Positions 1 through 19,145 of a stretch of 21,256 nucleotides of DNA are shown here, piece after piece (position 1 is the stretch's first letter; each line of letters opens with the position of its first letter). The notes beneath the pieces were generated by a model. It had not been told where the DNA came from and searched no databases. It saw nothing but the letters and a program-made list of their open reading frames with translations. This DNA comes from a virus, in IMG/VR virus record IMGVR_UViG_3300042544_002011, positions 1 to 21,256 of that record. One strand, given 5' to 3'. A program made the position numbers and the translations under genes.

Positions 1-2155
1 CGTAAGTAACTCCTTCTTGCGCGTCATAAGAGTTAATGACTTTAGTTTTGTCCATTTCCACATACAAGTATCCATAAAACTCCATCGCATAATTATCTAA
101 AGAGTTTCTATCAAGAGTTGATCTTGTTATTGTTCTTAGGTTAGTCATGTTCAGCTCTTGATCATAAACTCCCTGAACAGTATATGCTGGGAAATTATCA
201 ATTAGCGAATCAAAATCTGTTTTATTTTCTGGAGATGTTGATGGCCCAGCAACAACAGACCAAGCAGAAGCCCAATCGCCACCTAAAGCGCCCAATTCTG
301 GAATAACTCCAGCATTAGCTTTTAATGCTTTATATGTTGACTGGAAAGCTGGAGCAGTTATCTCTGCCCAAAAAGAAGTATTGACTGCGTTATTTACTAT
401 AGGAAATGGCTGCGATTCTCTTATCGCATTTGCTGTTGAAGCAGTAGTGTATGTTTCCGTTGATGTTGCTCCTGAGATTACAAACTTAAATGTATTTGTA
501 GCTACTTCTGTAATTGTTCTTGTTCCGTTTGCATAAACAGTTCCCGTTAAACCATCAACGACTACAACGTTGCCAACACTTAACCCATGAGAAGAGCTTG
601 TTACCGTTACTGTATCTAAATTTCTTGTCGCAGCAGTAATTGGTTTTGGAGAATATCCTGATTCAGTAGCTACAAAATAACGCGTCACTACAGCTGTAGC
701 GTTATTAGCTGCTGCATATGAGCCGTCTCCAGTTCCACTAGCTAAAACATAAGTAAAAGTGTTTGATGCTGGAGTAGATGTTATTGTTTTCGATCCATTT
801 ACATTTGGGCTTCCAGTTATTCCTGTTACCTCCACAATGTTTCCAGCCGCATATCCGTGATTTGTTTTCGTTGTTACCGTAACAGTCAAACTTGATATAG
901 TCGCTCCAGAAATATAATTTGTGTGAAGGTATTTCGTAACTTCTTTCTTTACGAATTTGTACGATGAATCAAATGTTGGGAAGTTTAAATTAGCAAATTC
1001 TGTTGGACCCCATTTTATCAAAGTGTTAAGTGGGTATGTAACAAAGTAATTTGCGGAAGTATTGATTGCGTTTGTTGCCTTTGTCTTTAACTGAAATGGA
1101 ATTGGATCATACGATCTATACGCCAAACCATTTTGAAACGCAAACGCTGTTTCTATTGCGATTGCGCCTTTCTTTGTCGCGGACAATTCTTTCCAATCAT
1201 AAACAATATCAGGATTGTAAGTAGATATATCAGGATTAGATACAACTTCTCCATTTGTTTTAACAATAACTTCAACTGGATCAGTAGCAACTTTTGCAGC
1301 TGAACTTGTAATAACATTAATATAGGAGTTTAATATATTAATGCTTGAGAATGTTTCGCTTTCAGAGTCGTTTGCTGATTGGTTGGTAGAGAATCCATCG
1401 GCATTTAAATTATAAGGAGATGGAGCTTCATCTTCTGAAACCAATTCAGTATAATCATTGATCGCCTTATCAGCAGGAGTCATCAACTGTTTAATGTCTG
1501 TGGCTAATGGATAATGGTTGGTTGCCGCACTAATTTGCGATGATCCCACTAACAATCTTCCATATCCAACAGGAACAGCTTGTCCTTGAGATACGTTGCT
1601 AGGTTTGTTGCCAAAAAGATAAGATTTGCCGCCAGCAGCTACTTCCTGATTAAAGTCTGGTTTAGGCTGCGGAAACAACAAAGTCATAACTCCTTGAATA
1701 GCCAATCCAGCTCCTATTGCCGCCACAGCGCCGCTCAACCCAGCTAAAGAACCAGCCGCTGTAGTTGCTACCGCTCCAGCAACACCCGCTGTGGTTCCTG
1801 CTGAAAAAATACCCAAACCAGCAAAACCAAGTCCTCCAGTCATTGCGATTAAAGCTACGCCAGCAGCCAACATCAATATGCCTCCTGAATTGCTTCCAGC
1901 GCCCCAAACAACAGGAACGATGTGCATTTCTTTTGGAGCCTTTTCAATATAAAGCTCTTTAGGATTACTTAATACTTCATCATCTATAACTATTCTGTAT
2001 AAAACTCCTTTGATAGCTAATTTTTTAACAGTATTAGCAAAGTTTTTTTTATTAGCGTTGATAGCTGAAAATACTTCTTTTGGAGAACTAATGTTTAAAT
2101 TAAAACATTCTCCAAATAAGTTACGCAACTCTCCATGTAAATATACGTTAGTCAT
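1..2155 (-). CDS. Lambda gpI-like tail-tip assembly protein with long repeat-bearing C-terminal extension (3' end outside window)
   Basis: The open frame runs from ATG at 2155 off the left edge (718 codons, no stop). Residues 1-80 look like the small ubiquitin-like N-terminal domain of lambda gpI (start MTNVYLHGELRNLFG). Residues about 87-161 are a Gly/Ala-rich hydrophobic stretch. Near residues 193-205 stands VPVGYGRLLVGS, a hallmark of gpI/TipI proteins. Lambda gpI is only about 220 residues, so at least 500 residues here are an extension. It contains two tandem 65-70 residue beta-rich repeats and further Ser/Thr/Asn-rich sequence. The start overlaps the stop of the JAMM gene by 8 bases with no clear Shine-Dalgarno, suggesting translational coupling. 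The order L-K-I matches lambda, so a gpJ-like receptor-binding protein is expected beyond the left edge. Alternatively the extension is itself part of the tip or fibre. The gpI assignment is from motif and order; the role of the extension is inference. Confidence 0.8.
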   Translation of the reverse strand, partial: MTNVYLHGELRNLFGECFNLNISSPKEVFSAINANKKNFANTVKKLAIKGVLYRIVIDDEVLSNPKELYIEKAPKEMHIVPVVWGAGSNSGGILMLAAGVALIAMTGGLGFAGLGIFSAGTTAGVAGAVATTAAGSLAGLSGAVAAIGAGLAIQGVMTLLFPQPKPDFNQEVAAGGKSYLFGNKPSNVSQGQAVPVGYGRLLVGSSQISAATNHYPLATDIKQLMTPADKAINDYTELVSEDEAPSPYNLNADGFSTNQSANDSESETFSSINILNSYINVITSSAAKVATDPVEVIVKTNGEVVSNPDISTYNPDIVYDWKELSATKKGAIAIETAFAFQNGLAYRSYDPIPFQLKTKATNAINTSANYFVTYPLNTLIKWGPTEFANLNFPTFDSSYKFVKKEVTKYLHTNYISGATISSLTVTVTTKTNHGYAAGNIVEVTGITGSPNVNGSKTITSTPASNTFTYVLASGTGDGSYAAANNATAVVTRYFVATESGYSPKPITAATRNLDTVTVTSSSHGLSVGNVVVVDGLTGTVYANGTRTITEVATNTFKFVISGATSTETYTTASTANAIRESQPFPIVNNAVNTSFWAEITAPAFQSTYKALKANAGVIPELGALGGDWASAWSVVAGPSTSPENKTDFDSLIDNFPAYTVQGVYDQELNMTNLRTITRSTLDRNSLDNYAMEFYGYLYVEMDKTKVINSYDAQEGVTY
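427..898 (-). repeat. Two tandem 65-70 residue beta-type repeats inside the gpI-like protein
   Basis: On the minus strand, 898-700 and 624-427 encode two copies of one pattern: (S/D)xxTVTVT, a Gly-His or His-Gly turn, (A/S)xGNxVxVxGxxG, then NGxxTIT and NTFxxV. The first copy contains NHGYAAGNIVEVTGITGSP and the second SSHGLSVGNVVVVDGLTG. The DNA is diverged, so this is an old protein-level duplication. Such repeats are common in exposed phage structural proteins; a surface or spacer role here is inference. Confidence 0.75.
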
Positions 2156-2510
2156 AGTATTTTTTGAGCATTTCTATATACTCTTTATTTACATGAGGAA
2201 CCTTGGGAACGATAAGATTAAATTTTTCTGTTTGTTTGCTGTAAATCAAGTAAGGAATACATGAATTTTCGCAGTTGAATCTATCAAATTTAGATTCATC
2301 TTCTTCTGTCTTTGGATGAGTATGATAAATAGCAGCAAGCTTTCCGCTTTTGATTTGCTTGATAACTTCTAAAGGATGAATCTCAAATACGTCGTTTTCG
2401 TAAACAGCGATATTTTTTGCTGGTTCAGTTTTGATTTCGCCGTTTTCAATATAGACGAATCCACAAACCTCAACACTAGATGTAGCTGCGTGATCAATAA
2501 TAGATTTCAT
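2148..2510 (-). CDS. JAMM/JAB metallopeptidase-type tail assembly protein (lambda gpK N-terminal domain, stand-alone)
   Basis: This 120-residue protein carries an intact JAMM zinc site: Glu14 in EVCGF, then HTHP with His63 and His65, Ser73 and Asp76, exactly H-x-H-x7-S-x2-D. It matches the N-terminal JAB domain of lambda gpK, which acts in tail-tip assembly. The C-terminal NlpC/P60 peptidase half of lambda gpK is absent, and the protein ends soon after the JAMM fold. The start lies 2 bases after the stop of the gpL-like gene, and the stop overlaps the gpI-like start, so the three genes form one coupled unit. Metal binding and peptidase activity follow from the family; the biological substrate is unknown. 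Confidence 0.85.
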   Translation of the reverse strand: MKSIIDHAATSSVEVCGFVYIENGEIKTEPAKNIAVYENDVFEIHPLEVIKQIKSGKLAAIYHTHPKTEEDESKFDRFNCENSCIPYLIYSKQTEKFNLIVPKVPHVNKEYIEMLKKYYD

Positions 2511-2512
2511 GG

Positions 2513-4030
2513 TTATTGTTGAGACATTCCGTATTCTTCTGTACCGGGGAATCCGCCAAAAGGAAGTCCATCTTGATTTCCAAATCTCAATTTGCAGCCT
2601 TTAATACTCTTGGAGCATTGGTCGGGAATCCAATATTCTTTATTGAAGTATGGATCTTTTGTACTGCTAGATGTATGGTTTTTAGCGCAAACAAATACTT
2701 TATGAATCGGCTCCCAATTTGGAATTGCGTTAATATCAGATTTAGTTACTTTGATATTGTGATTTTCTCTATAAACATAATCGCCAACTTTGTAATTATA
2801 GTTAGAAATCCATTTGTCCCTGTTGACTAATAAACCAAAAGTTGATTCATTAATGCCTACATATCTAGAGATTGCGGAGTCTGTTCCAAATCTTTGAGCG
2901 CTTGTTAATGTTGAAGCCTCATCCGCATCGTAGTAGTACCTAGAAACAGGAACAGCTGCCCATGATGTAACCGCTGGCGGTTTATAGTAAATAGTTAAAG
3001 CTCCACCATCTCCTTGATTATACCATCTAATTAAAACTCTATGATAACCTTCTTTTAAGAAAATAGTTCCTTCTTCTTGTGGAGCGGTTGTATTTTGTGG
3101 ACCACTACCATAATCTCCAGCAATTACGTCGCCATCAATAAATAATTCAGCAGCATCATCAGGATCAACTCCAAGAGAGTAGCTTCCAGCTTGCCCTTTA
3201 TCTACTTTGAAGTAACCGAGAAATTCAGTAAATACATAAGTATCGTTTGTCACTGTAACAGAACTAACGGCAGATTCAGAAGAGAATGTCGCTTGAGCAA
3301 TTTTGGTAGTAAACTCAGAAGAATTTGCTGGAGAATCTGGACTACCAGTAGTTGTGTAAACTCTTTTTAAAAGACCTGCTCTAAAATCAGTTGCAACAGA
3401 AAGTCTTAAATCGTTCTCGTCCGCAACAGGCGCGCCCATATAACGGCATCCGTTACCTCTATAATGAAAAGAACAATAACGAGACATTACAATTCTTTTT
3501 GGGAAATTTACTCCATCAAGTTCAAGCGGCGAAGCTAACTCAAATTCTACAACAGCTTTATTTTCACTAGAGCGTCTTAGAATAAAGAAAACTTGATCTT
3601 CTAAGCCCGCTTTTGGATCGGCGCTTCCATAAGGATTAGCTCCAAGTGGTTTAGCCGCTGTTGGCGAAAAGTTTTTATCGTCAAGAAATTTAACAAATGT
3701 GCGCTTTCTTACCACTTTTGCGCCAACTAAGTTGTTATATCTTCTGATTAAGTTAGATACGAAGAAGTCTTGATTAGAAACTGCTAATTTTGGTCTAGGA
3801 AGTGTTCCGTCGCCTTTACTCTCAAACCCAGAACTTTGAATTGGAAATGGCGCATACTCTTCACCTTGCCAATAAACCGAACCTTCTATTCCATTAGTGC
3901 CGCCATGAATGTAAAGTTTCTCATCAGGAAAGTTAACGTAATCATAGTAAATGACAAAAAACTCTAGCAGCGCGGATGGTTCCAGCGAGAATAGAGCAGT
4001 ATTGACTAAATGGTTAGATTCCCTTGACAT
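2513..4030 (-). CDS. Lambda gpL-like minor tail protein (Fe-S type) with inserted PA14-like and CBM-like domains
   Basis: At 505 residues this is about twice the length of lambda gpL (about 232). The N-terminal part has the gpL pattern: FELASPLELDGVNFPKR, then C186 SFHYRGNG C195, and near the end C472 SKSIKG C479 KLRFG followed by LPFGGFPG. Spacings of 9 and 7 between Cys pairs equal those of the lambda gpL cluster ligands as I recall them (173/182 and 205/212). About 255 extra residues lie between the two pairs. Residues about 262-352 resemble a PA14 domain (FLGYFKVDKG, YSLGVDPDDAAELFIDG, GYHRVLIRWYNQG). Residues about 405-470 resemble a small carbohydrate-binding module (YKVGDYVYRENHNIKV, NWEP, EYWIPDQ). 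The protein should sit at the tail tip; binding surface sugars is inference. The start is preceded by AAAGGA and a TATAAT box. Confidence 0.85.
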   Translation of the reverse strand: MSRESNHLVNTALFSLEPSALLEFFVIYYDYVNFPDEKLYIHGGTNGIEGSVYWQGEEYAPFPIQSSGFESKGDGTLPRPKLAVSNQDFFVSNLIRRYNNLVGAKVVRKRTFVKFLDDKNFSPTAAKPLGANPYGSADPKAGLEDQVFFILRRSSENKAVVEFELASPLELDGVNFPKRIVMSRYCSFHYRGNGCRYMGAPVADENDLRLSVATDFRAGLLKRVYTTTGSPDSPANSSEFTTKIAQATFSSESAVSSVTVTNDTYVFTEFLGYFKVDKGQAGSYSLGVDPDDAAELFIDGDVIAGDYGSGPQNTTAPQEEGTIFLKEGYHRVLIRWYNQGDGGALTIYYKPPAVTSWAAVPVSRYYYDADEASTLTSAQRFGTDSAISRYVGINESTFGLLVNRDKWISNYNYKVGDYVYRENHNIKVTKSDINAIPNWEPIHKVFVCAKNHTSSSTKDPYFNKEYWIPDQCSKSIKGCKLRFGNQDGLPFGGFPGTEEYGMSQQ

Positions 4031-4562: not shown

Positions 4563-4949
4563 ATGATTATGAACAAAATTAAATTATTCATCGTTTCGTT
4601 AACTCTAGCTCTTTTGGCTACCAATGCTCAGGCTGGTATCCCATTTTATCTTGAGTCCAAGAATAACACCTCCGCTACTAACTGGAATACCCAAACATAT
4701 TCCCATGAAGCTCGCGTTGGCGTAGCTTATCCTTGGGTTTATGCCGAAGTTGGCAAAGGTCGCCAATACGTCAACTCCTTTAACAAGGGCGAAAACATGG
4801 ACACCTTTGAAGTTGGTACGAAGATCACCGTCAAAAAGGTTGATGTTAAGCTCAAGTTTGAAGGAAGCAACGGCAAGCGTTTAAATTCTAAATTGCCGTC
4901 AAAATTCCTTGACACAGGCGGCGAAGTCCGCATTAGATATAACTTCTAA
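4563..4949 (+). CDS. Small secreted, outer-membrane barrel-like protein
   Basis: The N-terminus is a clear Sec signal peptide: MNKIK, a hydrophobic core (LFIVSLTLALLA), then cleavage after TNAQA. The mature part (about 104 residues) alternates polar and apolar residues (VGVAYPWVYAEVG, VKKVDVKLKFEG, GGEVRIRYNF). It ends in Phe, a feature of outer-membrane beta-barrels that use the BAM complex. It is short for a full barrel, so it may be a half barrel, an oligomeric barrel or a periplasmic beta protein. A second ATG two codons downstream (4569) would give a more standard signal start. The next gene begins in its stop codon (TAATG). No family is recognised; surface exclusion or receptor masking is possible but unproven. 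Confidence 0.7.
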   Translation: MIMNKIKLFIVSLTLALLATNAQAGIPFYLESKNNTSATNWNTQTYSHEARVGVAYPWVYAEVGKGRQYVNSFNKGENMDTFEVGTKITVKKVDVKLKFEGSNGKRLNSKLPSKFLDTGGEVRIRYNF

Positions 4950-6840: not shown

Positions 6841-7490
6841 TGACTTACGAAGAACAAGAAACAATTTTGTTTACAGAATTTTCTAAAGTAAAAAAAGATT
6901 TTGAATCTGTTTTAAAAAAGAAAATTACTCGTAAAAACTTTAAAGAAGCTATTGTTGATTTAACTAAAATCGCAGTCAACACTCAATTTGATTCAGAGAT
7001 TGATGCGGACATTAGAGAAAGACTATCTGTATTTTTCGCTGTTTGCCAGCCTTATCTTGGTGAGGTTATTTGGTCCAAGATAAAAGAAAAAACTCTTAAG
7101 ATCAGTATTGATTACGGTGATGACGCAATGGTTAGCTGGAATATTCCAGTAGAAACATTTTTTATAAATCAAAAACAATTTGAACTATCTCTTGGAATGT
7201 TAATCAGCAGCTTTAAGGATTGCTTCCTTGGTCTTTTCCTGTGCCCAGAATTGCGCGAAGCAGTTATGCAGGGCGACGAACTAGCGGTTAAAGCTCTTTA
7301 CTCCTCCTTCTCCAGACCATCTATGGAATCAACAGTTATTAATCTCAAGCTGTTTAAAGAATGTTTCCCTGATTTCTATGAGCATATCACTACCAAGTTA
7401 GATATTATGAAGGTAGAAGATATGAACGAGTTTATCAAAAATAAAAATAAAGAGTCCAAAGCCCCAGCAAAAAAGCGTAAAAAGAAGTAA
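6837..7490 (+). CDS. Hypothetical phage protein with basic C-terminal tail
   Basis: This 217-residue soluble protein begins MMTYEEQETILFTEFSKVKK. It has a largely helical N-terminal third rich in Lys and Glu, then a mixed domain (DDAMVSWNIPVETFFINQKQFEL, then SFKDCFLGLFLCPELREAV). A disordered lysine-rich tail follows (APAKKRKKK), which suggests contact with nucleic acid or another polyanion. GGAGG lies 7 bases before the start. Junctions on both sides are ATGA or TAATG. No family is recognised. Confidence 0.75.
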   Translation: MMTYEEQETILFTEFSKVKKDFESVLKKKITRKNFKEAIVDLTKIAVNTQFDSEIDADIRERLSVFFAVCQPYLGEVIWSKIKEKTLKISIDYGDDAMVSWNIPVETFFINQKQFELSLGMLISSFKDCFLGLFLCPELREAVMQGDELAVKALYSSFSRPSMESTVINLKLFKECFPDFYEHITTKLDIMKVEDMNEFIKNKNKESKAPAKKRKKK

Positions 7491-8152
7491 TGCCATACTT
7501 AAACGCCAACATTCCTGTTTTTCATGCTTATTTAAGCAGTGATTTTCTTTATAATCATACTAAAGCTGAAAAAGAGTATATTTCGTGTGAAGTTTTCGGA
7601 GTTACCTCATTAACTCGCCGCTGCCTTACATTTCAAGTAATGACGGAGTATGGCTCTAGACATGATAGAGTTCCTATTCAATATCTGACACTAGAACCTA
7701 AACACTCTAACTATCCTTTAGATTGGCTGCAACTTTGGGATTGTTACTCAAATGTCTTGTCTGTAACAAGATATGAGTATCATAAGAACGCCGCTGTTGA
7801 AGTTCAGCTCAAGAATCACGAATGGGTTAAGGGCAAATACTTATTCACAATAGACTGGCATGACAATCCTGATTGCGCTCTAGGTTATTCTGAAATGGCT
7901 GGAGGACACAAATGCGGCCATCTTATTTGGGGTCTTCAAGACTCAACAGGTAAAGAATGTAATCAATTATTCTTTCAGCCAAATAATAGAGTTGTTTGGA
8001 GAGATGGTGGCGCTTTTATCGCTAAAAAATTAGAGAAACCAGATTGGAAAGTCTTTGATAAAGAGTTCACTTGCGAAGGTAAAGGCAAGTGGGTCGCTTT
8101 AGATAACGACGATTACTTCTATCAATTCAAAGAATCTGATAAAAAAGTGTAA
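7490..8152 (+). CDS. Conserved phage protein of unknown function
   Basis: This 220-residue protein is of a type I recall as a conserved hypothetical in many large myoviruses, with the opening MPYLNANIPVFHAYL, the middle PLDWLQLWDCYS and YLFTIDWHDNPD, and the later QPNNRVVWRDGGAF. It contains two Cys/His-containing loops (GGHKCGH and FTCEGKGKW) and many Trp/Tyr residues, suggesting a compact beta domain. It has no signal peptide or membrane helix. The start is in a TAATG junction. It is the last gene before the curli block, with an 11-base gap, so the curli genes may be read through from here. Family resemblance is from memory, not from a search. Confidence 0.75.
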   Translation: MPYLNANIPVFHAYLSSDFLYNHTKAEKEYISCEVFGVTSLTRRCLTFQVMTEYGSRHDRVPIQYLTLEPKHSNYPLDWLQLWDCYSNVLSVTRYEYHKNAAVEVQLKNHEWVKGKYLFTIDWHDNPDCALGYSEMAGGHKCGHLIWGLQDSTGKECNQLFFQPNNRVVWRDGGAFIAKKLEKPDWKVFDKEFTCEGKGKWVALDNDDYFYQFKESDKKV

Positions 8153-8163
8153 TGGTATGATAA

Positions 8164-8619
8164 GTGAAGAAGGCATTTTTTCTAATTTTATTTATTTTTA
8201 TTTCCAGCTTGCGTGGAAGCGAGATGGTTCATGCCTTCAAGTCTCCGTTTTTCAATGGAGTTAACTATTCTGGACACGCTCTTACAGTAGAGAATTTAGC
8301 TCGTACCCGCAAGCAAGCCGTTAAAGATAACTTAAAGGCTGATCTTGAACAGAAGAAGATTCAAGAGACAAACACTCCGCTCAATACTTTCATAAATAAC
8401 TTACAAGCAAGAATTTATTCTCAGCTTGCTTCTCAAGTTACAGATCAGATTTTTAATTCAAACGGCGAAACGTTTGGGATTATCAACTTACAAGGTGGCG
8501 CAACCGTTACTTGGCAAAAGAACGGCGACTTAGTAACGCTTTATATCAATGACCCAGCAACAGGCAGTTCGACACAGATTCAGCTTCCTGTTGGAGTCCT
8601 CAAACCAGGAGGTGGTTAA
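8164..8619 (+). CDS. csgF: CsgF-like curli assembly protein
   Basis: This 151-residue protein has a signal peptide (KKAFFLILFIFISSLRG). The mature N-terminus VHAFKSPFFNGVNYSGHAL parallels E. coli CsgF TFQFRNPNFGGNPNNGAFL, the segment that inserts into the CsgG channel. The middle (NTFINNLQARIYSQLASQV) and the C-terminal strand pair (WQKNGDLVTLYINDPATG then SSTQIQLPVG) also follow CsgF. The start is GTG at 8164; no ATG fits this frame and no Shine-Dalgarno is seen, so expression may depend on read-through from upstream. In bacteria CsgF caps the CsgG pore and couples export to fibre nucleation. csgG follows 2 bases after the stop. Its presence in a phage context is the unusual point. Confidence 0.88.
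   Translation: MKKAFFLILFIFISSLRGSEMVHAFKSPFFNGVNYSGHALTVENLARTRKQAVKDNLKADLEQKKIQETNTPLNTFINNLQARIYSQLASQVTDQIFNSNGETFGIINLQGGATVTWQKNGDLVTLYINDPATGSSTQIQLPVGVLKPGGG
8607..8613 (+). promoter_or_regulatory. Strong Shine-Dalgarno of csgG
   Basis: AGGAGGT lies 8 bases before the csgG ATG at 8622, inside the last codons of csgF (encoding the Gly-rich C-terminus). It is the strongest ribosome-binding site in the block. It implies that the pore protein is made efficiently even if the GTG-started csgF is weak. Confidence 0.7.
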
Positions 8620-8621
8620 GA

Positions 8622-9416
8622 ATGAAATGGGTAATGCCATTTTTAATTCTTTTCTTGGCTGGTTGCTCATCTTTCCCGCAAAAACCCGCCATATTAGAAA
8701 AGCCGAAGCTGCAAGCTCCACCCTTGGAGCAGCAGCTAAAGAACTTGCCGCCGCCTGAAAGCCCAAGAATCAGCATTGCTGTTTATTCCTTCGTCGATAA
8801 GACTGGACAGCGCAAGACGGTAGATTCTTACGCCTCTTTCTCATCTGCCGTTACGCAAGGAGCGGAAAGCTGGCTTATAGACGCTTTGCGCGTGGCTGGC
8901 AGTGGCAAATGGTTTCAGGTGCTAGAGCGCACCAGTTTGGATAATATCATTAGAGAACGGCAGCTAATCAACCAAACAAGAGAAACATTTCAAGGTAGAG
9001 ACGCCGAAAAGCTAACTCCTATGCTTTTTGCTGGCATTATTGCGGAAGGCGGCATCATCGGATATGACACCAACATAATTACTGGTGGTGCTGGCGCAAG
9101 CGTTCTTGGTATATCTGCAAGCTCGCAGTACCGTAAAGACGTTGTTACAGTTTCGCTTCGTTTCGTTAGCGTACAAACAGGCGAGATATTACTTAGTGTA
9201 GCTGTAACTAAAACAATTTCTAGTGTCGCGGTTTCAGGCAACCTATTCAAGTTCTATGAACACGGCGTAACTCCTGTGGAATCTGAACTTGGATTAACTG
9301 CCAATGAACCAAATACAATAGCTGTTAGAAGTGCTATCGAACAAGCAGTGATAGAAATAGTAGATCAAGGAGATAAATCGGGACTCTGGAAATATAAAAC
9401 CCCACAAAAACAATGA
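8622..9416 (+). CDS. csgG: CsgG-like outer-membrane curli secretion pore lipoprotein
   Basis: This 264-residue lipoprotein has lipobox LAGC with lipidated Cys15. It follows E. coli CsgG nearly end to end: SIAVYSFVDKTGQ, FSSAVTQGAESWLIDAL, WFQVLERTSLDNIIRERQLI, AGIIAEGGIIGYDTN, GGAGASVLGISASSQY, then VSLRFVSVQTGEIL, TANEP and GLWKY. Length matches the family, and both hairpins of the 36-strand barrel appear present. In the constriction loop the Phe is kept (Phe73, E. coli Phe56). The neighbouring Asn is Ser72, and the Tyr position is ambiguous because the loop is one residue longer, so pore selectivity may differ. It should form a nonameric pore for unfolded curli-type subunits. It is coupled to csgF (2-base gap) and to the curlin-like gene (ATGA). 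Confidence 0.93.
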   Translation: MKWVMPFLILFLAGCSSFPQKPAILEKPKLQAPPLEQQLKNLPPPESPRISIAVYSFVDKTGQRKTVDSYASFSSAVTQGAESWLIDALRVAGSGKWFQVLERTSLDNIIRERQLINQTRETFQGRDAEKLTPMLFAGIIAEGGIIGYDTNIITGGAGASVLGISASSQYRKDVVTVSLRFVSVQTGEILLSVAVTKTISSVAVSGNLFKFYEHGVTPVESELGLTANEPNTIAVRSAIEQAVIEIVDQGDKSGLWKYKTPQKQ

Positions 9417-10129
9417 AAATCAAACTCTTAGCCTTATATGTATTTTTATCCGCCCTTTGCTTTGGGCAGAATCAAATCTACATCAACCAAATCACCACTA
9501 CTGGTACAACAACTATTGTTCAAACTGGTAGCGTTAATAAAATTGGTTCGTCTGGCACACCCAGCGAAATAACATCCGACAACCTCTCTTTTGAGATGAG
9601 ACAAGTTGGAGACAACAACGATGCTAACTTTTCCATGATCGGTAACAACTTGACCCTTAAATCTATTACTACTGGTAATAGCAATAACCTAAAGATGTTC
9701 ACAAATGGAGCAAATAACGATATTGATCTTACCTTCACTGGCAACTCAAATACATTCTTGCTTAATAAAGACGCTATCGCCAACAGCACAGATAAAGCTA
9801 CTACTGTTGATGGCGATGTTAAATTCGCTGTTACTGGTAACAGTAACGTAATGAAAGTTGGAATTGATGATGGTAAATATAACAAATTAGATTATCTCAT
9901 CACTGGTTCCAGCAATTTATTAACCACAACTCAGGCAGGTAATCCGGGCGGAAACGCTGCTGGCAGTGGTCACAGTCAAGTTGTAACTGTTTTAGGAAGC
10001 TCAAACACAATGAACTTCCAGCAAGCAGGTTCAGAAAAGCAAACTTTGACCTACAATTTGACTGGCAGCTTCAATACAGTTACTATTCAGCAAAGCACAA
10101 CTGCTGCTAGTTTACCTCCGATTCCTTAA
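9413..10129 (+). CDS. Curlin-repeat (CsgA/CsgB-like) secreted amyloid-type protein
   Basis: This 238-residue protein has a signal peptide (KIKLLALYVFLSALCFG, cleavage before QNQ). The mature part is about ten short Asn/Ser/Gly-rich repeats of the form x-G-x-x-N-x-hydrophobic-x-hydrophobic. Examples are QTGSVNKIG, QVGDNNDANFSM, TGNSNNLKMF, NGANNDIDLTF, TGNSNTFLL, TGNSNVMKV, TGSSNLLTT, LGSSNTMNFQQAG and TGSFNTVTIQQ. Classic curlin units are S-x5-Q-x-G-x-G-N-x-A-x3-Q; here several copies keep the Gly/Asn core but lose many of the Gln ladder residues. It is placed directly after csgFG, so it is the natural substrate of the pore. Starts in ATGA with csgG and ends in TAATG with the FecR gene. It could alternatively be a nucleator (CsgB role); no second curlin gene is seen. 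Confidence 0.8.
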   Translation: MKIKLLALYVFLSALCFGQNQIYINQITTTGTTTIVQTGSVNKIGSSGTPSEITSDNLSFEMRQVGDNNDANFSMIGNNLTLKSITTGNSNNLKMFTNGANNDIDLTFTGNSNTFLLNKDAIANSTDKATTVDGDVKFAVTGNSNVMKVGIDDGKYNKLDYLITGSSNLLTTTQAGNPGGNAAGSGHSQVVTVLGSSNTMNFQQAGSEKQTLTYNLTGSFNTVTIQQSTTAASLPPIP

Positions 10130-11304
10130 TGAGATTTGCCGTTATATTTTTATTAACGGCTTTATCTCTTTTTGGTTCATCTGGTAAAATAGTAGAGGCT
10201 ACTGGCCCAACTCAAATTACCAGAGATAAGAGCAAGATTGATGGTAAAGCTAACGTTGGGGTTGAGATGTACGACACAATCGAAACACTTCAATCTCGCG
10301 TTGGCATTACTTTTGAAGACGACACAAGAGTCCAGATTACAGAGTTCTCTAAATTAAAAATCGACGAGTTCGTTTATGACCCATCGAGCGGCAAAGGTTC
10401 TTTGTCAATCAAAGCTGCATCGGGAACAGTCAGATATACTTCTGGACTCATAGCGAAGAATAGTAGAGAAAATATAAAAATCAAAACTCCAACTGCTGTT
10501 GTTTCAGTTAGAGGAACAGATTTCTCGATGAGCGTAGGAGAAGACGGTAAAAGTTTAATTGTTCTTTTGCCGTCTCTTCCGTCGCTAACTGGCGCTTCAC
10601 CAGTTGTAGGCTCGATTGAAGTTGCCAACTCTAGCGGTACAGTTGTGTTGAATCAGGCTTACCAAGCAACATTTATCTCCTCTGCTTTCTCTAATCCAAC
10701 AGCTCCAGTTATTCTAGACTTGAATGACGAGTCTAAGATCAATAATAATCTTCTGGTAGAGAGTAACAAATCTATTACTAAGAATAGTAAAGAAACAAAA
10801 AAAGTTTCGTCTGAAAAAGATAAAGTCGAAGACAAGAAAGACGACAAATCAAATAAGAAAACCGTCGATACTAAAACTCAAGTGGCGCAACAAACTGTTT
10901 CTGAAACAGTAACAGAAGCCGCCAGCGCAACAGCAGACGCGCCGCCTCCACCTAAACAAGAAACAGAAGTTGCCCAAATAAAATTGGACGCTAAAATAGA
11001 AGCTCCAACAGTTGAAGCTCCAAAAGTAGAAGTTCAAACACCAGTGGTTGTTAAAGAAGTTCCTAAAATTGAAGTTCCTTCGATCACGAATCCAATTCAG
11101 ACAAATAATATAACATCAGGAACAACTACCGTTAACAACGGATTCACTACTGATGGAAAATACGCTTCATTATCTCTATCTACTGATAAAGGTGTAATCA
11201 AATTTACCACCAAATACGACGCTAACTCTACCGTTACTGTTAATGGTCAAGCTTACGTTTTAAACTACGGTGAAAAAAGTAAAGTTTACATTACTCAGAG
11301 ATGA
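10129..11304 (+). CDS. Secreted FecR-domain protein with Lys- and Pro-rich linker
   Basis: This 391-residue protein has a signal peptide (RFAVIFLLTALSLFG). A FecR domain covers about residues 20-200: GVEMYDTIETLQSRVGITFEDD, then VQITEFSKLKIDEFVYD, ASGTVRYTSG, and the hallmark IKTPTAVVSVRGTDFSM at 118-134. Next comes a Lys/Asp/Glu-rich, probably disordered region (about 205-250), then a Pro/Glu/Val/Lys-rich stretch (about 270-320). A short C-terminal beta domain (about 340-391) closes the protein. This is not the sigma-regulator FecR with a cytoplasmic helix: no inner-membrane segment follows the domain. Such secreted FecR proteins are often encoded next to CHASE2-cyclases, as here (ATGA junction). 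A periplasmic ligand or partner for the CHASE2 sensor is a reasonable inference; the linker length would allow spanning the periplasm. Confidence 0.82.
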   Translation: MRFAVIFLLTALSLFGSSGKIVEATGPTQITRDKSKIDGKANVGVEMYDTIETLQSRVGITFEDDTRVQITEFSKLKIDEFVYDPSSGKGSLSIKAASGTVRYTSGLIAKNSRENIKIKTPTAVVSVRGTDFSMSVGEDGKSLIVLLPSLPSLTGASPVVGSIEVANSSGTVVLNQAYQATFISSAFSNPTAPVILDLNDESKINNNLLVESNKSITKNSKETKKVSSEKDKVEDKKDDKSNKKTVDTKTQVAQQTVSETVTEAASATADAPPPPKQETEVAQIKLDAKIEAPTVEAPKVEVQTPVVVKEVPKIEVPSITNPIQTNNITSGTTTVNNGFTTDGKYASLSLSTDKGVIKFTTKYDANSTVTVNGQAYVLNYGEKSKVYITQR

Positions 11305-13349
11305 AGAAATATAGAATCTATACAGCAATCGCATCACTGTTGGTTTTAATTTGTCTAGTAACTTTAAGAGTTCAAGACCCGTTCTTCATTGAGACGGCGA
11401 GATTAAAAGCCTTAGATTACTATCAGATCACTCAAGAGAAAGTCCAAAGTGAAAGTGTTGTTGTAGTAGAGATAGATGAGAAGACTCTTGAGAAGCATGG
11501 TCAATGGCCTTTCCCAAGACAAATCTTAGCCGACGCAATAACAAAGGCATTTGATAACGGAGCAGAGATTGTCGTGTTGCCGATTATTTTTGCTGAGAGT
11601 GACCGATTCAATGGAGACGCCGCACTAAAAGAAACTTTCGGCAAGTATCCTGTAATCATTAGTCAATCTGCGGCAAATAAAGGAAAAGGCTCACCTGTGC
11701 CAAGAGGCGTAGCAGTTGTTGGCAGTGGCATCAATGATTGGCTATTTGATTACTCTGCGGCGATTGGGCCGACAAAAGAACTTGGCGAAGCTGCTGCTGG
11801 CGTTGGTATGCTCTTAACTGCGCCCGAAGTTGATGGCGTAGTAAGAAGATTACCGCTGATCGTTCAAGTGAACAAAGAGTTTTACCCAACACTGCCATTA
11901 GAAATTTTGCGCGTAGCTTCAAATGACCCAAGTTACCAAGCAAAAGTTAATCAAGCTGGCGTATCTGCCGTTCGTATTCCTAAATTTAAAACAATTAAAA
12001 CTGACGAGAATGGGCGAGTTTGGTTGAATTTCAAATACACCTTTGAGTCTTTTTCATTTACCAAAGAAGATTGGTCAGCAGTTAAAGGCAAGATCGTGAT
12101 GATTGCGCCAACAGCAGAAGGTCTTTCCAACACTGTCGCAACATCAGTTAATATCAAGAATGGTTACGAAATACCGCTTTTTGCCGCTCAAATGCTGCTA
12201 GATGACTCAAGACTCGAAAGACCGTCTGAATTCAATTTGTACGAGGTTCTGTATGGCACTCTTGCTGCATTGTTAGTTATAGTCACGTTCATTTGGCTGA
12301 ATTACTTAGTTTGCGCTGGATTATCCATCGGTTTGATGGTTGCACCAGTCATTTATGGCGTCAAAGCCTTTGGCAATGGACTACTTTTTGATTATAGTTG
12401 GATAGTCTTTACCCTTTTCATCTGCTTCTCTGTGTCTGCGTTCATGCGTTTCATCAATGAGTTTAAACAGAAGCAACAAATCAGAAAGCAGTTTGAACAC
12501 TATCTTGCTCCTGCGATGGTTAAAAAGCTCCAAACTAATCCAGAACTATTAAAACTTGGCGGTGAAACAAAAGACTTGACAATCCTTTTCTCTGACGTTC
12601 GCGGCTTCACTGCACTTAGCGAGCATTTCAAGACTGATCCTCAAGGATTAACTTCTTTGATTAACCGTTACATGACTCCTATGCTCAAGCTGGTTATGAG
12701 CAAAGATGGAACTGTTGACAAACTAATTGGTGATGCGGTTATGGCTTTTTGGAACGCGCCTGTTGATGTAGCGCGCCACAAAGAATTAGCTATTGAGTGC
12801 GCTGTTGAGATGTTCGTGAAACTCGATGAGTTAAATAAACAACTCGCACTAGAAAAATTGCCGCAACTTTCCATTGGCGTTGGCGTCAACTCTGGCTCCG
12901 TTGTTGTTGGAAACATGGGTTCAGAAAATCGTTTCGACTATACTTGCCTTGGAGATGCAGTTAATCTCTCGTCTCGCTTAGAAGGTCAGAGCAAACCTTA
13001 TCACGTTGGCATAGTCATTGGCGAGCAAACGGTGAAAGGCATCGAGAATTCATTCAATTTCCTAGAGTTAGACAACATCGCGGTCAAAGGTAAGAAAGAA
13101 GGGATTAAGATTTATACCGTAATCACGAACGATGAGAAGGCAAATAAGATTGTTTCTCATCACAAGAAGATGATGGATTTCTACTACGCGATGAACTGGG
13201 ACGAAGCAATGATCTACTTGACTAGACTCAAAGCAGAAAATCTAAAGATGATTGAGTATTACGAGATGCTAGAAAGCAGAATCTCTGAACTCAAAACCGC
13301 CAACTTACCCAAAGATTGGGACGGTGTTTATCACGCAACTAGTAAGTAA
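11301..13349 (+). CDS. CHASE2-domain class III adenylate/guanylate cyclase
   Basis: This 682-residue membrane protein has an N-terminal TM at about 7-25. A periplasmic CHASE2 sensor follows (about 30-300; LKALDYYQ, VVVEIDEKTLEKHGQWPFPR, ADAITKAF). TM helices fall at about 310-386, then a class III cyclase at about 420-615. Catalytic residues are all present. Metal-binding Asp432 is in LFSDVRGF and Asp478 in GDAVMAFW. The base-selecting pair is Lys474 and Thr548, and the transition-state pair is Asn555 and Arg559 (NLSSRLEG). Lys/Thr is the class IIIb pattern associated with ATP, so cAMP is the likely product, though GTP use cannot be excluded. A helical tail (about 620-675) follows. The start overlaps the FecR gene stop (ATGA). 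The stop abuts a convergent minus-strand gene. Confidence 0.93.
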   Translation: MKKYRIYTAIASLLVLICLVTLRVQDPFFIETARLKALDYYQITQEKVQSESVVVVEIDEKTLEKHGQWPFPRQILADAITKAFDNGAEIVVLPIIFAESDRFNGDAALKETFGKYPVIISQSAANKGKGSPVPRGVAVVGSGINDWLFDYSAAIGPTKELGEAAAGVGMLLTAPEVDGVVRRLPLIVQVNKEFYPTLPLEILRVASNDPSYQAKVNQAGVSAVRIPKFKTIKTDENGRVWLNFKYTFESFSFTKEDWSAVKGKIVMIAPTAEGLSNTVATSVNIKNGYEIPLFAAQMLLDDSRLERPSEFNLYEVLYGTLAALLVIVTFIWLNYLVCAGLSIGLMVAPVIYGVKAFGNGLLFDYSWIVFTLFICFSVSAFMRFINEFKQKQQIRKQFEHYLAPAMVKKLQTNPELLKLGGETKDLTILFSDVRGFTALSEHFKTDPQGLTSLINRYMTPMLKLVMSKDGTVDKLIGDAVMAFWNAPVDVARHKELAIECAVEMFVKLDELNKQLALEKLPQLSIGVGVNSGSVVVGNMGSENRFDYTCLGDAVNLSSRLEGQSKPYHVGIVIGEQTVKGIENSFNFLELDNIAVKGKKEGIKIYTVITNDEKANKIVSHHKKMMDFYYAMNWDEAMIYLTRLKAENLKMIEYYEMLESRISELKTANLPKDWDGVYHATSK

Positions 13350-15245: not shown

Positions 15246-15452
15246 ATGAAAGTAGAAATTGATGCAGATACAGCTGACGGCATTACACGATGCTCTTTAA
15301 AACAAAGCATCGCGTACATTCGCGAAGACATTGCAAATATCAAAAAGAAAAAGAAACTTGAGTATTATCAAAAACACGAATTGGCTGAACTCATTATCAT
15401 TTTAGATGCTATTGAGAAAACATTTGATTATTATGGAGGAGATTTAAAATGA
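15246..15452 (+). CDS. Conserved small phage protein (68 aa)
   Basis: ATG 15246 gives MKVEIDADTADGITRCSLKQ, which matches the usual beginning of a small phage family I recall (MKVEID...DGI..ASLKQ). A further upstream in-frame ATG at 15159 would overlap the previous gene and add 29 unrelated residues, so it is rejected. The rest is helical with a Lys-rich turn and ends DYYGGDLK. The stop overlaps the next ATG (ATGA). The last codons supply the GGAGG for the next gene. Function unknown. Confidence 0.75.
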   Translation: MKVEIDADTADGITRCSLKQSIAYIREDIANIKKKKKLEYYQKHELAELIIILDAIEKTFDYYGGDLK

Positions 15453-15728
15453 AAATTAAAGTTACTCTTAAAGATATTGAAGAAGGATTTAGGGGGAGTT
15501 GTTATGATTGCCCCGTAGCTCTTGCATTTAAACGGGAAGTTAAACCGACAACCCAAATTGGGTTGAATGTTGGCACTGAACGAATACTTCATCGCGAAGT
15601 ACATGAATGGGACACATACACACTGCCTAAAAAGGCGCAAACTTTTATTAAACGATTTGATAATGGGAAACGGGTTGAGCCATTCACTTTTGAAATTAAA
15701 AAAGATTTAAAATGAAAATTAAAGTTAC
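15440..15728 (+). repeat. 26-bp direct repeat marking a tandem gene duplication
   Basis: The same 26 bases occur at 15440-15465 and 15703-15728, covering the end of one gene, the ATG and the first five codons of each paralogue (core AGATTTAAAATGAAAATT). Identity drops quickly downstream to protein-level similarity. This shows an in-tandem duplication of the whole reading frame, or repeated homologous exchange at the start region. Confidence 0.85.
15449..15715 (+). CDS. Hypothetical phage protein, tandem paralogue 1
   Basis: This 88-residue protein opens MKIKVTLKDIEEGFRGSCYD, followed by CPVALAFKREV, and ends LPKKAQTFIKRFDNGKRVEP then FTFEIKK. The pattern (I-x-V-x-x-x-DI-x-x-G, CP-A-A, LP-x-x-A-x-x-FI-x-x-FDN, PF-x-FEI) is one I recall from phage and bacterial hypothetical proteins. 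The next gene encodes a clear paralogue. A strong GGAGG lies 8 bases upstream of the start. Coupled to both neighbours by ATGA junctions. Confidence 0.75.
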   Translation: MKIKVTLKDIEEGFRGSCYDCPVALAFKREVKPTTQIGLNVGTERILHREVHEWDTYTLPKKAQTFIKRFDNGKRVEPFTFEIKKDLK

Positions 15729-16005
15729 ACAAAAAGATATTGACAAAGGCGTTCGATCAAGTTATTATTACTGTCCTATCGCTCATGCTTTCAGGCGTGC
15801 CGTTAAAAATAATAACGAACTTGATTGCTGCGTTGCCTCAAGTTATATAGTTTATCTTCCTGATGATAAACGGAATAGATACAAATTACCCAAAAAAGCG
15901 CGGAAATTCATTGAACATTTCGATAATTATCGACCTGTAGAACCATTTTCGTTTGAAATTAAAAAAGGCAAACCATTAACATTTCGCGCCGCTGCATTAT
16001 TATAA
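15712..16005 (+). CDS. Hypothetical phage protein, tandem paralogue 2
   Basis: This 97-residue paralogue of the preceding protein shares MKIKVTxKDI, the CPIAHAFRRAV block and LPKKARKFIEHFDNYRPVEP then FSFEIKKG, with an extra nine-residue tail. The region around both starts is nearly identical DNA, but the strong GGAGG is replaced by AAAGA here, so the second copy relies on coupling through ATGA. Function unknown. The middle parts have diverged, including the Cys content (two adjacent Cys in DCCVASSY here). Confidence 0.75.
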   Translation: MKIKVTQKDIDKGVRSSYYYCPIAHAFRRAVKNNNELDCCVASSYIVYLPDDKRNRYKLPKKARKFIEHFDNYRPVEPFSFEIKKGKPLTFRAAALL

Positions 16006-18239: not shown

Positions 18240-19145
18240 ATGAAACTATCTCTCTGTTGCATATCCGAAATCCTTGCCGAGCACAAAGGCTTCAAGTTTG
18301 AGACTATGACTCTCACTCGATTCCTCTCCTTGAATCGTGACGAAGCTATTCGCGTTCTCAGCAAGCGCATCCTCCATAATTTTTTCATCACGCATCAAAT
18401 CATCAAGCATTGCCACAGCTACGGCATTGCTGGCTACCGTTTGTCCTCTAGTTTGACTCCTGTTATCAATCATCCTGACGTTAATCTTCGTCTGCAAGAC
18501 TTACCTGATTGGCCTGATATGCGTGACGCTCTGCGTAGAATCGCCAACGAAATCAAAACTAGTGGCGTCAGAATTTCAGCTCATCCTTCTGAATACATCA
18601 CGCTCACCAATCAAAATGCCGACACAATCAGCAACAGTGTGCGCGATTTAATTTCTCACGCCGAGCTATTTGATTTGCTTGACTTGCCTCAAGACTATCG
18701 CTCGCCGCTCAACATTCATTGCCGTCAAGATGGCGATTGCGAAGAAATCTCCAAACGATTTCTCGCCAATTACCGCACTCTACCTCACAACGTAAAGTCG
18801 CGTCTAGTCGTCGAGGTCAACGACAACGTTGGTGGCTCATGGAACGTCGCCAACTTGCACAAACATTTTTTCCTCACTAGCGGAATCCCTGTGACCTACG
18901 ACTCTCTGCATCGTCAATTCTGCAACTCTGGCACTACTGATGAAGAAGACTTCAATCTCGCTTACTCTACTTGGAACACCGCTCCTTTGTTCCACTTTTC
19001 CGAGGGCGTCAATGACACGCGCAAGCACGCTGATATGCCGATTGGCAAGCCCAACGCTTACGGCAAAGACGTTTTCTTCGATGTGGAACTCAAGGGTAAA
19101 GACAAAGCTATTTTCAAACTTTTAAATTTAGAGTATCACTTATGA
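18240..19145 (+). CDS. uvsE: UV damage endonuclease UvsE/UvdE
   Basis: This 301-residue TIM-barrel enzyme of full family length matches across its whole sequence: GIAGYRLSSSLTP, RISAHPSEYITL, LNIHCRQDGDCEE, RLVVEVNDN, PVTYDSLHRQF, LFHFSEG and VELKGKDKAI. All metal ligands of the Thermus enzyme appear to have counterparts: His78, His115, His160, Glu192, Asp221, His224, His252 and Glu283. UvsE nicks DNA 5' to UV photoproducts, so it would repair phage DNA, useful for a phage of sunlit water. A TTGACA box (18204) lies 30 bases before the start, but a standard-spaced -10 is not evident. No Shine-Dalgarno. The next gene overlaps by ATGA. Confidence 0.93.
   Translation: MKLSLCCISEILAEHKGFKFETMTLTRFLSLNRDEAIRVLSKRILHNFFITHQIIKHCHSYGIAGYRLSSSLTPVINHPDVNLRLQDLPDWPDMRDALRRIANEIKTSGVRISAHPSEYITLTNQNADTISNSVRDLISHAELFDLLDLPQDYRSPLNIHCRQDGDCEEISKRFLANYRTLPHNVKSRLVVEVNDNVGGSWNVANLHKHFFLTSGIPVTYDSLHRQFCNSGTTDEEDFNLAYSTWNTAPLFHFSEGVNDTRKHADMPIGKPNAYGKDVFFDVELKGKDKAIFKLLNLEYHL

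Follow-up and report, generated by a model that had tools for sequence, protein, structure and literature searches.

A phage-borne curli-type export block linked to a FecR-domain protein and a CHASE2 adenylate cyclase: a candidate export-state sensor in an uncultured phage

Do five adjacent genes in an uncultured virus, which combine curli-type export with a FecR-domain protein and a CHASE2-containing cyclase, encode one device? The genes lie at positions 8164 to 13349 of IMG/VR virus record IMGVR_UViG_3300042544_002011, whose 21,256 bases constitute the whole stretch analyzed here, hereafter termed the window. An initial annotation had proposed that the block senses the state of a secreted fiber or pore in the periplasm and turns it into cyclic nucleotide, and had called it a previously undescribed phage system. 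Pfam matches and a reading of the junctions confirm the five genes and their arrangement, with functions assigned by homology:

8164-8619, plus strand: csgF, GTG start (PF10614, 1.4e-15; phrog_35372, 9e-30)
8622-9416, plus strand: csgG, lipobox LAGC (PF03783, 1.7e-51; phrog_20175, 3.9e-72)
9413-10129, plus strand: curlin-like gene, no Pfam match, predicted beta-solenoid
10129-11304, plus strand: FecR-domain gene (PF04773, 2e-10)
11301-13349, plus strand: CHASE2 and class III cyclase gene (PF05226, 3.2e-39; PF00211, 8.1e-24; phrog_35576, 4.3e-201)

Overall, the block belongs to a known kind of module, here in a new carrier: an uncultured phage whose tail is lambda-like. We read it, at somewhat less than an even chance, as a phage-borne type VIII secretion module wired to a cyclic AMP (cAMP) sensor that reports the state of export.

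From csgF to the cyclase gene, the junctions are a 2-base gap, an ATGA overlap, a TAATG, and a second ATGA overlap, exactly as first described. Their use as evidence for a device did not hold up. Among the other adjacent plus-strand gene pairs of the window, with gene starts chosen by the analyst from the list of open reading frames (ORFs), 12 of 22 also overlap or sit within 2 bases of each other. Because tight packing is the norm in the window, the junctions indicate co-translation at most, and we rejected them as proof of a device. Conserved gene order is the stronger evidence.

Viral loci were fetched from IMG/VR by CsgG, by the cyclase, and by FecR separately, and their ORFs were labeled with profiles built from relatives of the window proteins. 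Linkage was counted over 95%-identity clusters with sufficient flank and tallied by fetching gene; because each scan kept the best 80 loci (43 for one cyclase scan), it is measured on near relatives. Clusters fetched by CsgG contain csgF in 35/35, the curlin-like gene in 34/34, fecR in 32/32, and the cyclase gene in 18/18 cases, and those fetched by FecR contain csgG in 60/60, csgF in 57/57, and the cyclase gene in 36/36. Full-length cyclases are accompanied by fecR in 39 of 40 clusters and by csgG in 36 of the 37 (from a total of 84) that could be judged for it once short-flank loci were excluded. The exception, L270, carries csgG ≈13 kb upstream of the cyclase gene on the same 72-kb contig. 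When cyclases without a full-length match are also counted, csgG is present in 35/39, the losses being L270 and the stand-alone cyclases of L105, L107, and L110. Fifteen records lack csgG at the cyclase locus; two of them (L270 and L224) have it elsewhere, and the 13 that do not, L101 and L102 included, are mostly short or cut near the cyclase. A pooled count (csgG to fecR, 119/119) is partly circular because, for some loci, the gene being counted was also the one used to fetch them; we prefer the recount by fetching gene, which has smaller denominators and the same outcome. In the 117 pooled clusters with csgG, fecR, and the cyclase gene, the gap between the latter two is at most 50 bases in 46, 51 to 1500 bases in 42, and more than 1500 bases in 21, with the cyclase gene on the other strand in 8. 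These counts and gaps show that the five-gene set is kept together and that the cyclase is its loosest member. The order csgF, csgG, curlin-like gene, fecR and the placement of the cyclase gene downstream of fecR are both present in the window. The csgFG/curlin and FecR/cyclase parts do not drift apart among near relatives, as expected if the five genes form one unit.

The module itself has been described before. Curli genes with FecR and adenylate cyclase were reported from Pelagibacter podoviruses and myoviruses in mSystems in 2022 (PMC9599517), and a csgF/csgG cluster was reported from pelagimyophages, with none in freshwater fonsimyophages (PMC7029224). On the accessible portions of these papers and of the report on the methylophage Melnitz (PMC9004378), we rejected the idea of an undescribed phage system. 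Four of the five block genes also match existing phage families in PHROGs, annotated as of unknown function. The Pelagibacter phage HTVC008M and Melnitz each carry csgF, csgG, a curlin-like gene, a FecR-type gene, a second curlin-like gene, and a cyclase gene. The window has the same families in the order csgF, csgG, curlin-like, FecR, cyclase (CsgG 44.5-45.5% and cyclase 39.6-40.9% identical to theirs), but with one curlin-like gene instead of two. In the podoviruses, a histidine kinase lies upstream of the module according to the available text of PMC9599517, whereas the gene directly upstream of the window block (7490-8152) has no Pfam domain, and thus no histidine kinase is present there. 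Unlike the published podovirus and myovirus carriers, the window phage has lambda-like tail genes. Overall, the single-device idea gains support, whereas the claim of novelty does not.

Bacterial curli systems resemble the block in part. Similar to the curli systems of Alphaproteobacteria, as far as the accessible part of PMC3521004 describes them, it has CsgG, CsgF, and curlin-type repeats without CsgE; a Pfam scan did not find this usual periplasmic gate among the five block genes. FecR, kinase, and cyclase are not located inside bacterial curli operons in the portion of PMC9599517 available, and 73 of the best 80 bacterial CsgG loci that we retrieved have no module-type fecR or cyclase match in the fetched flanks, some of which are short.

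Both type VIII secretion families, PF10614 and PF03783, are matched above cut-off. CsgF has a hydrophobic, signal-like start followed by a mature start, FKSPFFNG, that is recognizable among aligned relatives (17 rows), and is predicted by homology to serve as an extracellular chaperone or second constriction of the CsgG pore. CsgG, 43-81% identical to 12 aligned relatives, would be the outer-membrane lipoprotein pore. A CsgG 39.5% identical to that of the window is also encoded by OR851715.1, a 1499-base "Salmonella phage" entry that may be a host fragment. The third protein has G-[NSD]-[SNDF]-N turns beginning at residues 66, 88, 110, 142, 165, 195, and 218, and AlphaFold2 predicts a beta-solenoid (predicted local distance difference test score, pLDDT, 85; predicted template modeling score 0.80). 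Structure comparison of the model returned generic solenoids (Z up to 18.5), Foldseek gave no clear match (best E 0.029), and the NCBIfam CsgB profile matched weakly (E 0.024, far under cut-off). Self-similarity is weak as well: of the lags tried, only 53 beat the 95th percentile of shuffles, with 11 and 22 next. The model suggests a secreted beta-solenoid with curlin-like turns.

What kind of protein is the FecR homolog? The FecR of the FecI/FecR iron-citrate system has an N-terminal anti-sigma domain and an inner-membrane helix. The window protein presumably begins with a signal peptide (about residues 1-18), followed by a FecR domain (≈18-200), a disordered Lys/Pro linker (209-334; 19 Lys and 10 Pro), and a C-terminal beta domain (≈335-391). 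In the AlphaFold2 model, residues 209-310 and 315-334 have pLDDT below 50 and separate two well-predicted beta domains, which bears out the long linker of the initial annotation. PF04773 is matched in 33 of 33 diverse module FecR proteins, and the N-domain fold is that of the FecR/PupR signaling domain (PupR, Z 15.2 over 134 residues at 2.7 Å). A lesser match to 5ix9, a "cell surface anchoring domain" (Z 7.1, 73 residues, 2.4 Å), is recorded as a lead only. No further Pfam family, the anti-sigma domain included, was found in the 33 proteins at E 0.01, and the single hydrophobic stretch of the window protein (residues 4-22) coincides with the signal peptide, leaving no membrane helix. With both features missing, we rejected a role as iron-citrate anti-sigma regulator; the protein is not the iron regulator of its name, and that annotation is unsuitable for the FecR of this module.

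The last residues of the FecR protein resemble a curlin half-repeat. The best match to a curlin-repeat matrix falls at the tail in 62 of 150 FecR proteins (14 of the 33 diverse ones), against 0/33 shuffled sequences, 1/142 CsgG proteins, 0/166 cyclases, and 0/26 other bacterial FecR proteins, the last from loci with ≈1.5 kb of flank beyond which csg genes may lie. No description of such a tail was found in the literature searched, which covered few subscription journals.

CHASE2 class III adenylate cyclases have a CHASE2 domain between membrane segments, followed by a catalytic domain. The window cyclase follows this plan, with hydrophobic segments at 6-24 and 321-385, a CHASE2 sensor, and a class III catalytic domain whose active-site residues are D432, K474, D478, T548, N555, and R559. 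We take these to include the two metal-binding aspartates, the adenine-specific lysine, a second base position that accepts Thr, Asp, or Ser, and the arginine. In an alignment of 174 rows, of which 173 are distinct and 4 come from bacterial bins, neither the two metal aspartates nor the adenine lysine nor the arginine ever varies (174/174); Thr occupies the second base position in 116 rows, Asp in 33, and Ser in 25, and the catalytic asparagine is replaced by Ser in 30. Comparison with the PDB ranks adenylate cyclases first and guanylate cyclases next. The enzyme keeps a complete adenylate-cyclase active site and should make cAMP. Its catalytic domain also matches PycC profiles (best 2.9e-28); no other PADLOC profile was matched in a scan of the five block proteins. 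Melnitz (L120) and 29 other rows combine Ser at the asparagine with Asp at the base position, and their activity or product may differ.

The two halves of the cyclase have separate histories. L249 and L215 are 96% identical in the sensor half and 49% in the catalytic half, and 67 of 15,051 pairs combine at least 65% sensor identity with at most 50% catalytic identity. On a FastTree tree of the sensor half (138 rows), catalytic type requires 27 parsimony changes, a number that tree error may inflate, compared with 43-50 in 30 shuffles; the catalytic-half tree requires 5. These comparisons indicate repeated exchange of the output half. In the literature searched, we found no report of repeated catalytic-half swaps alongside a co-varying pore, FecR, and sensor, and on phage CHASE2 cyclases or on curli in jumbo phages the matches listed held nothing beyond the papers cited here, with few subscription journals covered.

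The remaining components co-vary. Distances among CsgF, CsgG, FecR, and the CHASE2 half correlate in 56 phage clusters (Mantel r 0.42-0.72), whereas correlations with the catalytic half are 0.07-0.18, of which those for csgG (0.16) and the sensor half (0.18) beat nearly all permutations. With CsgG distance controlled, the FecR N-domain tracks CHASE2 (0.31; C-domain 0.17) and the C-domain tracks the curlin-like protein (0.38; N-domain 0.20); the partial correlations of FecR with CHASE2 and with the curlin-like protein each exceed all 499 permutations. The ratio of nonsynonymous to synonymous substitution rates is 0.02-0.23 wherever computable, indicating that the module is under purifying selection.

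Which genomes carry the module? Among 36 larger viral records, tail protein L occurs in 4 (L001, L011, L013, and L025) and a tail sheath in 10, including the 297-kb L037 and the 236-kb L226. By these markers, the module occurs in lambda-like-tailed phages and in jumbo-size sheathed phages, besides the published podoviruses and myoviruses. Four of the best 80 bacterial CsgG loci (L122, L123, L124, and L143) hold csgF, csgG, a curlin-like gene, fecR, and a cyclase gene. L122 and L123 are Caulobacteraceae metagenome-assembled genomes (MAGs) and L124 is the alphaproteobacterial Hyphomonas sp. TMED17 MAG; in all three, csgF, csgG, one or two curlin-like genes, fecR, and the cyclase gene stand in a row. 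Nine of ten proteins scanned in the flanks of L122 and L124 belong to ordinary families (acyl-CoA dehydrogenase, amidohydrolase, and TonB-receptor plug among them) and one is unmatched; translations read by eye gave glycosyltransferase-like and peptidase-like neighbors for L123 and, for L143, clamp-loader-like genes as in T4-type phages. Because L122 and L123 have near-identical modules (CsgG 97%) among different neighbors, recent movement is suggested. L125, L129, and L141 are short contigs with a partial module, and these three and L143, from bins named Pelagibacter, Pirellulales, Flavobacteriales, and Sphingobacteriales, are probably phage contigs binned with bacteria. A search of 398 genomes of the MAG carriers' order, among them the carriers G001 and G003 (344 and 221 bits), gave no further carrier (next 86), and across 385 genomes of the class G003 alone is prominent (221 bits, next 138). 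Ordinary CHASE2 cyclases are widespread: at a threshold of 1e-60, 180 of the 372 genomes searched in the class have one. FecR lies beside such a cyclase in 12 of 86 short bacterial loci by hand count, in agreement with the initial annotation that this is a recognized bacterial pairing.

In the CsgG tree, the phage-type proteins form one clade with the MAG copies nested inside, and the cyclase tree agrees. A phages-only clade is rejected by the approximately unbiased test (p 0.019 for CsgG and ≈5e-83 for the cyclase sensor half), although the group was named after the first trees, the trees were quick, and rooting relies on outgroups. No branch of the cyclase tree sets the chosen outgroup apart by itself, since the viral L101 and L102 cluster with it. 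As the phages-only tree is worse, we rejected the chromosomal operons as direct donors. From this nesting, the MAG operons look captured from phages and not their source, a situation for which we found no report in the literature searched. Ultimately, csgF and csgG probably derive from Alphaproteobacteria, in agreement with the accessible part of PMC9599517.

In the mechanism we favor, the infected cell would acquire an outer-membrane pore made of CsgG and CsgF, through which the curlin-like solenoid would be exported. FecR would sit in the periplasm, its curlin-like C-terminal domain touching the fiber protein or pore and its N-domain, via the flexible linker, touching CHASE2 at the inner membrane. 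An altered export or pore state would then alter cAMP synthesis. The wiring would follow the logic of cell-surface signaling, with an outer-membrane event, a periplasmic FecR domain, and an inner-membrane output, except that a cyclase would replace the sigma factor. The fiber or pore would probably act on the envelope of the infected cell, through aggregation or exclusion of rivals. There is precedent in Sinorhizobium, where the outer-membrane barrel NsrA feeds the CHASE2 adenylate cyclases CyaD1, CyaD2, and CyaK; there the cAMP receptor, Clr, is known, and the available part of that report does not mention FecR or curli genes (PMC13001267). Similarly, the Burkholderia BiofilmReg operon joins a periplasmic FecR/LysM protein to a CHASE2 sensor; its output is a histidine kinase, and csg genes are not mentioned in the portion available (PMC5192318). 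A more elaborate version, which we put forward only as possible and regard as rather doubtful, is a three-compartment export checkpoint in which pore and curlin-like protein, FecR bridge, and CHASE2 co-evolve as one receiver, the cyclase half is an output cassette that phages swap among themselves, and the complete device has been acquired from phages by a few bacteria. Exchange of the cassette would perhaps change the nucleotide product or escape host defense.

Several observations weigh against an export-state sensor. Shared ancestry of linked genes can give co-variation, which is moreover stronger within the csg set than across csg genes and sensor. The cyclase gene lies more than 1.5 kb from fecR in the 21 clusters noted above and on the opposite strand in 8, and in the available text of PMC9599517, FecR and cyclase are frequent and not universal in an ocean survey. 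FecR proteins score low against the curlin matrix (mean best 0.5 bit), a peak at the protein end is also seen in 13 of 148 CsgF proteins, and in the FecR proteins from genome bins (L122, L123, L124, and L143) the best match is not at the tail. Domains binding cyclic nucleoside monophosphates (cNMPs) exceed cut-off in 5 of 118 genomes from the family of the Pelagibacter MAG; of 38 phage records, the 297-kb one alone has such a match, and two more have weak ones. Given this rarity, most of these genomes offer no evident cAMP receptor of the ordinary kind. Finally, Melnitz cultures did not clump, and the authors prefer a role in lysis, as far as the accessible part of PMC9004378 shows.

One alternative, the published view, is that curli-like fibers hold siblings together or block rival phages, while FecR and cyclase tune expression via host cAMP. 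The beta-solenoid predicted for the curlin-like protein (pLDDT 85) fits this, as do PMC7029224 and PMC9599517 in the portions available. We consider it unlikely, given the scarcity of cNMP-binding domains and the absence of clumping just described, and because a regulator acting on its own would have no need to co-vary with the pore. Less probable still is a lysis or depolarization device, in which a gated CsgG/CsgF pore times progeny release and the cyclase senses or sets the moment. This was put forward for Melnitz from structure prediction and synteny, according to the accessible part of PMC9004378, and the lack of CsgE among the five genes would suit it; a plain pore, however, would not need the curlin-like genes and FecR conserved beside it, and complete modules occur in bacterial MAG contigs amid ordinary bacterial genes. 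An uptake pore, with an ungated CsgG channel feeding large solutes to the infected cell and the sensor reporting leak-caused envelope stress, was raised in the available parts of PMC7029224 and PMC9599517 and is very improbable, as it leaves CsgF, the curlin-like protein, and their linkage unexplained.

None of the explanations in the 2020 and 2022 papers (sibling capture, exclusion, lysis pore, and uptake) was built on the linkage of the curli module to a sensor cyclase. Combined with the finding that pore, FecR, and CHASE2 co-vary and that the cyclase half has repeatedly been swapped, this linkage poses a testable question: does cAMP depend on the pore or fiber protein? It also exposes a gap, namely a phage adenylate cyclase under purifying selection, whereas most genomes sampled from the family of one known host have no domain of the type that usually binds cAMP.

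The carrier is a tailed phage, as its lambda-type tail genes show, and probably a siphovirus:

2-4030, minus strand: tail proteins L and K and the start of the tip protein, lambda type
2516-4030: tail protein L, with a PA14 domain at residues 219-355

Megablast of the window against 50,697 phage records gave no match, and an Rfam scan of the window found tRNA only. A 68.8-kb relative, L013, has a CsgG 95% identical to that of the window; its terminase is 23-27% identical over 52-57% of its length to phage proteins (the 12 of 67 matches listed), and the protein adjoining the terminase gave no match.

Two further cyclase arrangements were observed. At L037:12803-15670, on the 297-kb contig, the cyclase gene is split by a 267-amino-acid ORF with DUF723 and T5orf172 domains, resembling a homing endonuclease; the interruption had no Rfam match at E 0.1. 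A further group of class III cyclases from phages comprises L104 to L119, mostly ≈480 amino acids long and 38-40% identical in the catalytic domain, with no csg genes within the fetched flanks; L107 lacks CHASE2 in Pfam. Elsewhere in the window, 4563-4946 encodes a small, cyanophage-like outer-membrane barrel (PF24653, 26.4 bits against a cut-off of 27) and 18240-19142 a UvdE-type UV endonuclease (PF03851, 5.9e-36). At 15449-16005, two similar small neighbors each start MKIKVT.KDI, likely a tandem duplication.

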